The translations under genes and the position numbers were made by a program. Positions 29,874-40,242 of a DNA stretch of 53,600 nucleotides are shown here, piece after piece. This DNA comes from Chitinophagales bacterium (GTDB lineage Bacteria; Bacteroidota; Bacteroidia; Chitinophagales; CAIOSU01). Below the pieces are notes generated by a model. The model saw nothing but the letters and a program-made list of their open reading frames with translations. It was not told the DNA's origin and searched no databases. Each line of letters opens with the position of its first letter. Within the stretch, counting starts at the first letter, position 1. Where the stretch lies: the NCBI GenBank assembly GCA_040877935.1, contig JBBDNB010000053.1, positions 1 to 53,600 on the forward strand. The letters run 5' to 3'.

Positions 29874-29902
29874 TATATCTTATTTTTAAATCAAATCCGT
29901 CT

Positions 29903-29948
29903 AAAATAAAAGTAGGGGCGCACGGCCATTCGCCCCTACTTTTATTTT
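29903..29948. repeat. 18-bp perfect inverted repeat with GTAG/CTAC, at the ccoG 3' end
   Basis: AAAATAAAAGTAGGGGCG and CGCCCCTACTTTTATTTT form a perfect 18-bp stem around the 10-base loop CACGGCCATT. It overlaps the ccoG stop codon. The A/T flanks make it a bidirectional terminator, while the GTAGGGGCG..CGCCCCTAC core looks like a REP sequence. Confidence 0.75.
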
Positions 29949-31338
29949 AAGGTGCTAAAAATTGCGTTTTCACAATATCGATGCTTTTCCCGTCTCTATA
30001 TACACCCACTTGTATTTTATTTTTCCTGCTTTCTAATTTTTCTTTCGGGATTTCTATCACCACTGCTCCATCGTACATAGATTGCGCTTCGACCAAAGGA
30101 GTTCCACCTGCAACAGTAACCTTTCCATCAATACCTTCAAGTTTCAATTCCACTTCAAAAGTTTGTGAAGTTTTATTCACCATTTGCAGCGTATATATAT
30201 TGCTGATATTTCCTTCCGAAGATTCTCTAAACAAAGTTCCCGGTGCACGCAGCAAGGTAGTTTCCACACTTGTACGTGTCAAAAGTGCCCCTGTAAGTAC
30301 AAAGAGCAAAACAATTAAAACACCGGTATATCCGAGCATTCGGGGCGACCATGCAAAAGGTTTTTTCTCTGCAATATTATTGTATGAGGCATAGCGAATC
30401 AAACCTCGAGGCTTGTCGATTTTGTCCATTACATGGTCACAGGCATCAATACATGCCGTGCAATTGATGCATTCCAGTTGTGTTCCATTTCTGATATCGA
30501 TTCCTGTAGGGCAAACCTGTACACATAAATTACAATCGATACAATCTCCCAGGTTTGGATCGGGTTCGTTCTTTTTAAGTTTGCCACGGGGTTCTCCGCG
30601 CAGCCAGTCGTAGGCAATTACTATGGAATCGCGGTCGAGCAGCACCCCTTGTAGCCGTCCGTATGGGCAAATAGTAGTGCAAACCTGTTCTCTCAAAAAT
30701 GCAAAAACACCATAAAATGCCATGGAGAAAACAATTACACCAAAGAACCCGGCTAAATGCTCTATGGGTGAACTTGTAACGATTTGCAACCATTTTTCCC
30801 GCCCTACCAGGTATGCCATAAAAGTATTGCCGATGGCAAAAGCGGAGACCAAAAAAATAATGTGTTTGCCTCCCTTTTTTATGATTTTATCCCTGTTCCA
30901 TTCCTGCTTGTCTAATTTTCGCTGTTGATTGGCATCTCCCTCTATCCAATATTCAATTCTTCTAAAAAACATTTCCATAAAGATGGTTTGCGGACAAACC
31001 CAGCCACAAAACAAACGACCATAAACTACAGTGAACAGTACTATAAATACAATGAGTGTAATCATTGCCAGGACAAATACGAAAAAATCCTGCGGCCAAA
31101 AGGGAAAGGTAAAAATGACAAATTTTCTTTCGAAAATATTGAGCATCAAAAGGGGCTGCCCGTTGATGTGAATGAAAGGAGCGGTGAAGAAAAAGATCAA
31201 CAGAAAATAGCTCAGCCATGCACGTGCATTAAAATATCTGCCAAAAGGTTTTTTGGGGAATACCCAGATTCTTTTTCCCGATTTATCTACAGTAGAAATA
31301 CTGTCTCTGAAATCTTCCTTCTCAGTATTTTCAGCCAT
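29947..31338 (-). CDS. ccoG: cytochrome c oxidase accessory protein CcoG (FixG)
   Basis: A 463-residue membrane iron-sulfur protein. About five membrane helices are present; CGWVCPQTIFMEMFFRRIEY precedes two 4Fe-4S motifs, CIDCNLCVQVCP and CINCTACIDACD. The C-terminal periplasmic Ig-like domain covers about residues 355-463. CcoG is linked to copper reduction or delivery for cbb3 oxidase. It starts 29 bases after ccoP. Confidence 0.95.
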   Translation of the reverse strand: MAENTEKEDFRDSISTVDKSGKRIWVFPKKPFGRYFNARAWLSYFLLIFFFTAPFIHINGQPLLMLNIFERKFVIFTFPFWPQDFFVFVLAMITLIVFIVLFTVVYGRLFCGWVCPQTIFMEMFFRRIEYWIEGDANQQRKLDKQEWNRDKIIKKGGKHIIFLVSAFAIGNTFMAYLVGREKWLQIVTSSPIEHLAGFFGVIVFSMAFYGVFAFLREQVCTTICPYGRLQGVLLDRDSIVIAYDWLRGEPRGKLKKNEPDPNLGDCIDCNLCVQVCPTGIDIRNGTQLECINCTACIDACDHVMDKIDKPRGLIRYASYNNIAEKKPFAWSPRMLGYTGVLIVLLFVLTGALLTRTSVETTLLRAPGTLFRESSEGNISNIYTLQMVNKTSQTFEVELKLEGIDGKVTVAGGTPLVEAQSMYDGAVVIEIPKEKLESRKNKIQVGVYRDGKSIDIVKTQFLAP

Positions 31339-38621: not shown

Positions 38622-39403
38622 AAAAATTTATACTCATATCAGGGCCATGTGTGGTTGAAAATGAAGCTGTAGTGATGCAGGTAGCGGAGCATGTAAAAGC
38701 ACTTGCAGAAAAACTGGGCTGGGAATATGTGTTTAAAAGCTCCTACAAAAAGGCCAACCGCAGCCGCCTGGAAAATTTCACCGGCATATACAGGGATGAA
38801 GCCTTCAGGATTTTAGAAAAAGTAAAAACAGAACTGGAACTTCCCATTCTTACGGATATTCATGAAGCACATGAAGCAGCAGAAGCAGCAGAAGTTGCCG
38901 ATTATTTGCAAATCCCCGCTTTTCTTTGCCGACAAACGGATTTATTGCAAGCAGCAGGAAAAACTGGTAAATGGGTGAATATTAAAAAAGGGCAATTTGC
39001 TGCACCCGATGCAATGGGTTTTGCACTGGAAAAAGTACGGGCAAGCGGTAATGAAAAAGTAATGCTAACGGAGCGCGGCACTACATTTGGCTATCAGGAT
39101 TTGGTGGTGGATTTCCGCTCTATTCCTGAAATGCAGAAATTCAATTGCCCGGTAATTATGGACGCCACTCACTCCTTGCAACAACCCAATCAACAGAGCG
39201 GTGTTTCGGGTGGTCGGCCAGAATTGATCGAAACCATTTGCCGAGCTGGAATTGCCGTTGGCTGCGATGGACTTTTCATTGAAACACATCCCAATCCCGC
39301 AGAAGCACTGAGCGATGGAAAAAATATGCTGCACCTGGACAAAATGGAAGCTTTACTTAAAAAGTGTGAGGTTTTGAGAGAGGCTGTAGAGAAAATAGGA
39401 TAA
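38618..39403 (+). CDS. kdsA: 3-deoxy-8-phosphooctulonate synthase (KDO-8-P synthase)
   Basis: A 261-residue aldolase that condenses arabinose-5-phosphate and phosphoenolpyruvate to KDO-8-phosphate for lipopolysaccharide. Motifs include ISGPCVVEN, YVFKSSYKKANRS, VNIKKGQF, LTERGTTFGY, MDATHSLQQPNQQSGVSGG and FIETHPNPAEALSDG. Cys11 in SGPC, in place of the Asn of the E. coli enzyme, marks the metal-dependent class II type. The start overlaps kdsD (ATGA). Confidence 0.96.
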   Translation: MKKFILISGPCVVENEAVVMQVAEHVKALAEKLGWEYVFKSSYKKANRSRLENFTGIYRDEAFRILEKVKTELELPILTDIHEAHEAAEAAEVADYLQIPAFLCRQTDLLQAAGKTGKWVNIKKGQFAAPDAMGFALEKVRASGNEKVMLTERGTTFGYQDLVVDFRSIPEMQKFNCPVIMDATHSLQQPNQQSGVSGGRPELIETICRAGIAVGCDGLFIETHPNPAEALSDGKNMLHLDKMEALLKKCEVLREAVEKIG

Positions 39404-39430: not shown

Positions 39431-40048
39431 TCAATCATAAAACTTGTCGTCTTTCCAATTAGCGGGATTGTTTTCGATGTATATACTGATCTTATGAAAT
39501 TCCGCTTCATCCCTTATAATGTGATCGTGAAACTTGGATTGCCAGGCAAAACCAAATTCAAGACGATTGCAATGTTTGGTTACTGCAGATTTATATCCGC
39601 CTACAATAGATGAAATGGTATTCTTTCCCTGGTTTTGAAATCTTTGCTGTCCAATGGATTTTTTTGTTAGGTCTTGGTTCTGTTGGTTTGGTAGATCCCG
39701 TAGAGACAAGGCATGCCTTGTCTCTACGGGATCTACAGGGTCAATATCTTTTGGGCCAGAATTACCCAACATATCATTACCTTTCAATATCAATATGCCA
39801 TGCACATGATTTGGCATAATTACATATTTGCCAAGCTCTATGTTTTTCGCATGATTCTTGATCTCATTCCAACATATATCTGCAATTACCCCTACATGTG
39901 ACAATTGCATTTTCCCATTTGATATCTCACCGAAAAAATGTTCCCGTTCTTTGGTGCAAATGGTAATGAAATAAGAAGCTGCCCAGCTATAATCCCACCA
40001 CTGGGCTCTTGCTGAAGAGGGTCTATATTTGTTTTTGTAGTTGCCCAT
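39431..40048 (-). CDS. REP-associated tyrosine transposase (RAYT, Y1/IS200-like)
   Basis: A 205-residue HUH single-strand transposase. The HUH motif is His81-Val-His83 in IMPNHVHGIL, and the catalytic Tyr is Tyr142 in GGYKSAVTKH. WQSKFHDHIIRDEAEF and IENNPANWKDDKF are family-typical. Residues 105-120 (VDPVETRHALSLRDLP) are encoded by a perfect 46-bp palindrome, so a REP sequence appears to sit in frame inside the gene. It does not destroy any catalytic motif. RAYTs process or spread REP palindromes, and such palindromes lie just upstream. Confidence 0.9.
   Translation of the reverse strand: MGNYKNKYRPSSARAQWWDYSWAASYFITICTKEREHFFGEISNGKMQLSHVGVIADICWNEIKNHAKNIELGKYVIMPNHVHGILILKGNDMLGNSGPKDIDPVDPVETRHALSLRDLPNQQNQDLTKKSIGQQRFQNQGKNTISSIVGGYKSAVTKHCNRLEFGFAWQSKFHDHIIRDEAEFHKISIYIENNPANWKDDKFYD
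39691..39736. repeat. 46-bp perfect palindrome inside the RAYT gene
   Basis: The half-site is GTAGATCCCGTAGAGACAAG followed by GCA, then its exact reverse complement, centred on GCATGC between 39713 and 39714. It shares ACAAGGCATGCCTTGT with the palindrome at 40177-40212. It carries GTAG at the left foot and CTAC at the right. Confidence 0.9.
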
Positions 40049-40176: not shown

Positions 40177-40212
40177 CTTGGTAGCCACAAGGCATGCCTT
40201 GTGGCTACCAAG
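40177..40212. repeat. 36-bp perfect palindrome (REP) upstream of the RAYT gene
   Basis: CTTGGTAGCCACAAGGCA and its exact reverse complement, centred on CATG at 40193-40196. The middle 16 bases equal those of the palindrome at 39691-39736 and the arms again contain GTAG/CTAC. Confidence 0.9.
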
Positions 40213-40213
40213 C

Positions 40214-40242
40214 TACTCTGACAGGCATGCCTTGATGCTACA
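40214..40242. repeat. degenerate REP copy
   Basis: CTACTCTGACAGGCATGCCT then TGATGCTAC: the same GGCATGCCT core with imperfect arms, two bases after the perfect palindrome. Confidence 0.65.

Follow-up and report, generated by a model that had tools for sequence, protein, structure and literature searches.

A double-foot REP hairpin carried in frame by a RAYT gene of a Chitinophagales bacterium and apparently maintained as DNA

Introduction

How does a perfect palindrome of 46 bp come to lie in frame within a REP-associated transposase (RAYT, TnpAREP) gene, and is it kept there for the sake of the DNA, the RNA or the encoded peptide? The question is raised by a stretch of 53,600 nucleotides from a Chitinophagales bacterium (assembly GCA_040877935.1, contig JBBDNB010000053.1), which is referred to as the window throughout. 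TnpAREP has been described as an enzyme of single-stranded DNA, and the recognition of single-stranded REPs by TnpAREP groups 2 and 3 depends on the GTAG motif as well as on the palindrome (PMC8266576). REPs of the form GT[AG]G ... C[TC]AC are known as "double foot" REPs (PMC6006769), and according to a rule from a 2010 paper, RAYT genes are flanked by two inverted REPs (PMC2817692). In subclass 2.4, REPs are also found inside the tnpAREP genes, generally between HuH and Y and without disruption of the frame, a feature described as unique to this subclass; Quentin et al. suggested in 2018 that the in-gene REP may have little impact because it falls in a peripheral loop (PMC6006769). In-frame REPs have been reported in other genes as well (PMC3733652), the excerpted text of PMC8049555 holds nothing on in-gene copies, and in a literature search with the letters of the repeat the papers listed matched solely by a 10-base string. 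An in-gene recognition hairpin, if true, would make the origin of REPs and the matching of a RAYT to its hairpin directly testable.

Results

The palindrome and its host gene

The palindrome consists of 23 bases (39691-39713) followed without spacer by their exact reverse complement (39714-39736), with a complementarity of 100%, and the coordinates given in the first-pass annotation proved correct. The number of perfect palindromes with 23-bp arms expected by chance in the window is 53600/4^23 = 7.6e-10, and among the 13 inverted repeats of the window (arms ≥14, spacing ≤40) there is no second one that is both equally long and perfect. The open reading frame on the minus strand (39431-40048, 205 aa) confirms that the palindrome is in frame between the HUH motif and Tyr190, where it encodes residues 105-120 (VDPVETRHALSLRDLP), supplying only the first base of the codon for residue 120. 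It reads identically on both strands and leaves two of the three frames open, the third running into the TAG of the foot. The whole folds into a single hairpin of 21 bp with a 4-nt loop, at -39.9 kcal/mol (z -9.9) as RNA and -24.1 (z -10.3) as DNA.

Table 1. Coordinates of the RAYT gene, its motifs and the associated repeats in the window
Feature	Position	Strand	Basis or remark
RAYT / TnpAREP gene, 205 aa, subclass 2.4-like	39431..40048	-	motifs, NF047646, fold match
HUH codons H81-V82-H83	39800..39808	-	H81 and H83 invariant in 38-row alignment
W169-Q170 codons	39539..39544	-	invariant in 38-row alignment
Tyr190 codon (YIENNP), presumed catalytic Tyr	39479..39481	-	invariant in 38-row alignment
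Loop, residues 93-140, predicted disordered, contains palindrome	39629..39772	-	AlphaFold2 pLDDT; hypervariable in 38-row alignment
46-bp perfect palindrome	39691..39736	.	codes for residues 105-120 of RAYT
28-bp double-foot REP core GTAGAGAC-AAGGCATGCCTT-GTCTCTAC	39700..39727	.	segment recurring in homologous genes
Upstream REP CTTGGTAGCCACAAGGCATGCCTTGTGGCTACCAAG	40177..40212	.	about 130 bp upstream of RAYT start; perfect 36-bp palindrome
Degenerate REP remnant AGGCATGCCTTGATGCTAC	40223..40241	.	inverted repeat adjoining upstream REP

The encoded protein shows the motifs of a RAYT, namely PNHVH (H81, H83) as the HUH motif, W169-Q170, and Y190 within YIENNP. In an alignment with 37 relatives (38 rows), the invariant single residues are H81, H83, W169, Q170, Y190, I191 and N194. 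The profile NF047646 (REP_Tyr_transpos) matches at 1.3e-15 with 57.6 bits in two stretches, below its curated cut-off of 80, and Pfam PF01797 (Y1_Tnp) reaches 15.2 bits, below its gathering score of 23. An AlphaFold2 model obtained with the same alignment has a confident core and a pLDDT below 50 at residues 93-131 and 133-140 (residue 132 excepted); the palindrome-encoded residues fall within this hypervariable loop of low pLDDT. The best Foldseek match of the model is 4er8_A, the E. coli TnpAREP with bound REP hairpin (E 1.9e-6, rmsd 2.3), followed by the TnpA proteins of ISDra2 and IS608, in keeping with an HUH-Y1 fold, while a sequence search of solved structures with the RAYT gave weak, unrelated matches only. 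The gene has NH[IFV]H, YIxNNP with WQ, a variable insertion after HuH and an in-frame double-foot REP; since these match the motifs given for subclass 2.4, it fits a RAYT of that TnpAREP subclass. Its neighbours are a DAHP-synthase-I-family gene (PF00793; 38618-39403, plus strand) and a 2OG-Fe(II) oxygenase gene (PF03171/PF14226; 40267-41262, minus strand).

REP copies in the genome

The genome (4.03 Mb, 63 contigs) was scanned for copies of the repeat. With up to 3 mismatches allowed, the 28-mer GTAGAGACAAGGCATGCCTTGTCTCTAC has a single occurrence; the exact 16-mer ACAAGGCATGCCTTGT is present nine times and the 14-mer core ten times, the ten being the RAYT copy, the upstream copy and eight dispersed ones. 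This 16-mer, the middle of the palindrome, had been said to recur about 440 bp upstream, and it was indeed found at 40187-40202, inside the perfect 36-bp palindrome at 40177-40212. Related REPs are dispersed in the genome, but their foot-proximal bases are unlike those of the RAYT copy: all nine core copies outside the gene read GTAGCC[A/T]C..., and the RAYT copy alone reads GTAGAGAC.... The upstream REP is identical in its 28-mer to seven of the eight dispersed copies (GTAGCCAC...), and the RAYT copy differs from the others by 2 bp per arm, or by 3 bp from the copy with GTAGCCTC. The reading frames at the nine outside copies span at most 102 codons, L004 among them lying near a contig end.

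Because the RAYT copy differs from the other nine, a recent insertion of a resident REP into the gene was rejected for this genome. The proposal that the enzyme's own substrate had been inserted into its gene holds in part, as a REP of the substrate type is embedded, recognizable by its double foot GTAG...CTAC and published as such for subclass 2.4 in 2018 (PMC6006769), whereas its recent arrival from the resident copies does not stand. A palindrome found nowhere else in the genome had been named as counter-evidence; this applies to the exact 28-mer but not to the core, which recurs. A REP flanks the gene upstream only and not on both sides, with no inverted repeat between the end of the neighbouring gene at 39403 and the RAYT stop at 39431.

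Each of the eight dispersed copies (L002-L005, L008-L010, L012) is set within a longer perfect palindrome with arms of 18-24 bp, the outer parts of which are different in most copies. A second REP family, GTAGGGGCGCACGGCCGTGCGCCCCTAC, makes up 11 of the 21 matches in the genome REP search (6 exact), and a copy of it with one altered arm is located in the window at 29902-29949 (REP 29912-29939).

Recurrence in homologous genes

Two sets of homologues were assembled. The first contains the best 80 of 565 homologous loci retrieved with the whole protein as query. For the second, residues 1-90 were used, which avoids the palindrome-encoded peptide, and 118 of 395 genomes of the class matched, the window's own included; it is composed of 30 loci (one being the window), two own-family loci and 60 regions taken by E-value among the matches listed, two contig-edge matches (G075:C14 and G366:C1294) being skipped in that order. 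Own-family sampling gave matches in two of seven genomes, again counting the window's. From 172 loci, 178 ORFs were obtained, of which L106 (HUH motif not locatable) and 16 others (W motif not locatable) were left out, leaving 161 linkers; the 73 and 87 genes counted below are these minus the window copy, and include rows with identical proteins (L030/L101, L154/L155, L157/L158 and L178/L179).

A palindrome with a score of at least 10 is present in the linker between HUH and W in 60 of the 73 near homologues and 55 of the 87 genes of the second set. The corresponding controls are 3 and 6 for the N-terminal half, 1 and 4 for the C-terminal part, and 0.1 and 0.0 for codon-shuffled linkers. Across lineages the core varies (AAGGCATGCCTT, AACGCATGCGTT, GTTGCATGCAAC, GCGATTAATCGC, GCAATGCATTGC, AATTCATGAATT and others), mostly framed by a foot like GTAGRGRC ... 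GYCYCTAC, and some palindromes reach 46-52 bp, well past the 28-mer. Rather than the same residues in non-palindromic codons, the pattern that would have spoken against the first-pass reading, the homologues carry palindromes whose bases have changed and still pair.

A near copy of the palindrome centre lies elsewhere in the fetched locus for 51 of the 116 palindrome-bearing genes, often directly upstream or downstream of the RAYT gene and in some cases as a second copy inside it. In the tree set, which omits two fragments (L126 and one of L137), the palindrome is absent from 35 of 159 genes and weak in nine more; its label needs 27 changes on the tree, 13 of them forced by well-supported branches, against a mean of 38.5 for shuffled labels.

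Some loci show peculiar repeat arrangements. The RAYT of the sole matching family relative (L125) has a palindrome with another core, GAGGCGCAAAATTTTGCGCCTC. Downstream of the RAYT stop in L015 there is an array of about nine REP copies, most of them spaced at 33 bp. In L020, L029, L077 and L146 repeats inside the gene lengthen the loop, either left arms in tandem or additional hairpins (for L029, VGTTHNVGTTHNVGTTHAVGTTHAVGTTHALSL is an example of the in-gene repeat), the tandem left-arm copies of L020 and L029 being partial.

Conservation of DNA versus peptide

Left arms picked by the foot alone were usable in 109 of the 161 linkers. With the right arm of its own gene, a left arm so chosen pairs at 12.1 of 14 positions, compared with 8.98 when arms are swapped between genes (200 swaps, maximum 9.39). 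Among the 109, 62 are perfect and 22 pair at 10 of 14 positions or fewer, several of the latter being the first of tandem copies. At each of the arm positions 10-12, four different Watson-Crick pairs occur (40 distinct palindromes). One core can also be read in two frames, as in VETRHALSL and RRDKACLVST, and likewise in ETRLIASL and RRDAINRVST, and in odd-length palindromes (e.g., VETRQCLVST) the second half is frame-shifted. As the arms co-vary and a single palindrome is used in two frames, what is conserved seems to be the DNA of the hairpin and not the encoded residues; conservation of the peptide was rejected on account of the two reading frames and the varied peptides.

Codon usage was compared in 50 disjoint pairs of palindrome-bearing genes that agree in reading phase, show 45-80% core identity and have no fewer than half of the palindrome-encoded residues in common. 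Where both genes of a pair have the same residue, they use the same codon for it in 304 of 344 cases within the palindrome, against 2568 of 4639 in the core (Fisher 8e-38), an excess that follows in part from the palindrome requirement, and the comparison was repeated without the palindrome filter. In the resulting 57 unfiltered disjoint pairs with 60-90% core identity, the palindrome is found in both genes 36 times, in one 16 times and in none 5 times; identity over the central 28 nt is 0.895 (n=35), compared with 0.724 in random pairs and with 0.592 for the same-residue codons of the core. At 45-60% core identity (75 pairs), both genes have the palindrome in 49 cases, one in 15 and none in 11, and the 28-mers are 0.703 alike (n=34), barely higher than the 0.655 of random pairs. 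This near-random likeness suggests that a hairpin persists even as its bases are exchanged.

Mismatches within the arms were also inspected for the signature of an RNA stem. The 82 mismatched cells in 125 genes comprise 18 G.U, 23 A.C (22 in distinct rows) and 41 others. Since G.U is not above A.C, an RNA signature was not seen, and selection on an RNA hairpin was rejected as a candidate; the self-recognition of the mRNA raised in the first-pass annotation is not favoured by these counts.

Single-copy genomes, loss and decay

In a search of 48 genomes with the core pattern, two gave no match, and other cores fall outside the pattern, as in the genome of L022, the REPs of which have a different core. 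The core occurs once in 17 of the 48 genomes, each time as the in-gene copy. All 14 pairs are intact in 12 of the 17 single-copy cases, in 11 of 12 with two or three copies and in 13 of 15 with more, and the mean numbers of broken pairs are 0.41, 0.08 and 0.33, respectively, the genes L023 and L045 having no core-pattern match in this count. Across these copy-number classes, there is no clear trend for the palindrome to decay where the genome has no further copy.

In eight disjoint pairs of single-copy genes, shared residues are encoded by the same codon in 56 of 62 cases, against 446 of 799 in the core, and in 22 of 25 outside the 14-mer by which the genomes were chosen, detection by palindrome score and the choice of the 48 genomes by core motif being partly biased toward conserved codons. 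HALSL is encoded by 15 of the 17 single-copy genes, with HALPL in L096 and HALSQ in L031, although the choice of genomes by core motif forces part of this peptide. Three single-copy genes (L024, L028 and L031) have a GTAC foot, a decay that suggests loss of use. In the Pedobacter gene L050, the palindrome has been cleanly lost in frame in comparison with its close relative L024; the reading frame can therefore stay open without it.

Other RAYT-like genes

Searching this genome with NF047646 returned 12 matches, one of them above the cut-off. The RAYT-like gene L191 contains an in-frame hairpin, AAACCTTCAAGGTTTCAAAAACCTTGAAGGTTT, and a near-identical one directly after its stop (1470-1502 and 1861-1895). 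In L193, GTTTCCAGTGATACTATGAC...GTCATAGTATCACTGGAAAC sits in frame in another loop than in L191, and upstream there is a hairpin that has its centre in common (1408-1452 and 1808-1850); at up to 3 mismatches this family has three copies in the genome, two of them at the L193 gene. No in-gene hairpin was found in two other RAYT-like loci of this genome, L188 and L187.

Relatives of L191 and L193 were collected with the N-terminal parts as query; 11 of 60 loci yielded no motif-passing ORF, and counting repeats once left 37 distinct genes. An in-gene hairpin with a score of at least 12 occurs in 14 of the 37, L191 and L193 included, against 0.0 in codon shuffles, and in 8 of the 37 the in-gene and a flanking hairpin have an 11-mer in common. 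The motifs of this kind are mostly NHFH and YIHxNP. Judged by sequence, these genes are not of subclass 2.4, the candidate subclasses being 2.6 or 2.1. A similar arrangement in another kind of RAYT argues against a quirk of subclass 2.4, and the published uniqueness of in-gene REPs to that subclass would then need widening.

Discussion

The palindrome is a double-foot REP hairpin, carried in frame in a loop of the RAYT that is predicted to be disordered, and is probably retained for its working as DNA. Retention through a DNA function is suggested, with somewhat better than even confidence, by the recurrence of the hairpin, the covariation of its arms, the use of two frames and the single-copy genomes. 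Single-stranded DNA appears the most likely form in which it is retained, because this is the type of recognition known for the family, the palindrome gives the same sequence whichever strand is read, and only one of the three frames is closed. Whenever the RAYT gene becomes single-stranded, on the lagging strand or as incoming transferred DNA, either strand could form this hairpin, and the enzyme might bind its own gene there, a possible self-recognition of a single-stranded DNA hairpin. The gene would then bring along its own recognition site, with no need of dispersed REPs, and this site may serve as a seed for REP copies in a new genome. A broader and more tentative proposal, which we regard as somewhat doubtful, is that in two or more kinds of RAYT, whose hairpins are unrelated, the gene has acquired and retained a copy of its own recognition hairpin within the reading frame as a cis-acting single-stranded DNA tag. 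The gene would be its own substrate and the seed of a REP family, and enzyme and hairpin would travel and co-evolve as a unit even without dispersed REPs.

The alternatives are not mutually exclusive with this reading or with each other. The hairpin could be a neutral passenger, a REP that landed in the tolerant loop of its own nearby RAYT gene and was passively inherited. The predicted disorder and hypervariability of the loop, the tolerated loss in L050 compared with L024, the patchy gain and loss on the tree and the suggestion of Quentin et al. of little effect on activity (PMC6006769) are all compatible with such an origin, and as REPs are often clustered at RAYT genes, local insertion could explain the gains. 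Passive inheritance is nevertheless unlikely, as in sister genes the arms stay paired and alike while synonymous sites elsewhere have diverged, and pairing is held also where no other core copy is available for re-insertion. Quasi-palindromes can be corrected by template switching at the replication fork, so mutation could match the arms without any selection. This would account for arms that change together, for palindromes of 46-52 bp that extend far beyond the 28-mer, and for the partial left-arm tandem copies in L020 and L029; it leaves unexplained why the same foot recurs in genes with different cores and why sister genes have the 28-mer in common, and we consider it distinctly unlikely as the cause of the pairing. 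Neither template switching nor local insertion by itself explains why foot and core persist where the genome has a single copy.

Explanations at the level of RNA or protein are less probable still. A 21-bp stem in the RAYT mRNA might govern how the message is translated or degraded, perhaps with the enzyme bound, and the predicted RNA fold is very stable (-39.9 kcal/mol, z -9.9). Against it stand the mismatches in 125 genes, where G.U (18) is no more frequent than A.C (23, or 22 when only distinct rows are counted), and the description of TnpAREP as acting on single-stranded DNA (PMC8266576), which make an RNA role very unlikely. That the palindrome is a by-product of selection for VETRHALSL-like residues might be argued from the frequency of HALSL in 15 of 17 single-copy genes, partly forced by the genome-choosing motif. 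The idea is exceedingly improbable, given that the same palindrome encodes unrelated peptides in two frames, that other cores yield other peptides and that the loop is predicted to be disordered. Synonymous changes that break the arms would tell the roles of DNA, RNA and protein apart.

The new elements of this work are the apparent maintenance at the DNA level and the apparent persistence without other core copies, together with the mismatch to the other copies of the genome and, by sequence comparison, the presence in a second kind of RAYT. The single-copy genomes may represent a state that precedes the spread of REPs.

Comparison with known systems

The in-frame REP of the window is exactly the arrangement published for TnpAREP subclass 2.4 (Bertels group 4), with which it has in common NH[IFV]H, WQ, YIxNNP, the variable insertion between HuH and core, and the in-frame double-foot GTAG...CTAC REP between HuH and Y (PMC6006769). 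The hosts reported there include Cyanobacteria, Bacteroidetes and various other phyla, with which the genome of the window agrees; arm covariation, reading frame and genomes free of other copies are tests added here to that description (PMC6006769). The E. coli TnpAREP (4er8) resembles the RAYT of the window in its fold and recognizes a GTAG foot plus hairpin of the kind presumed here, but is only 15% identical to it, and the excerpted text on E. coli does not mention an in-gene hairpin. The stem of E. coli REPs is also bulged (PMC8266576), whereas the palindrome of the window is perfect. In-frame palindromes within genes are also known as Rickettsia palindromic elements (RPE) and as other intragenic REPs; these are found in varied, unrelated genes (PMC3733652), unlike the in-gene copy of the window, which lies in a transposase gene. 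Finally, the IS200/IS605 TnpA enzymes (IS608, ISDra2) have the HUH-Y1 fold and, presumably, hairpin substrates in common with the RAYT, while their hairpins are subterminal, at the ends of the element, and their tyrosine motif is Y[IV]ENQ rather than YIxNNP (PMC6006769).
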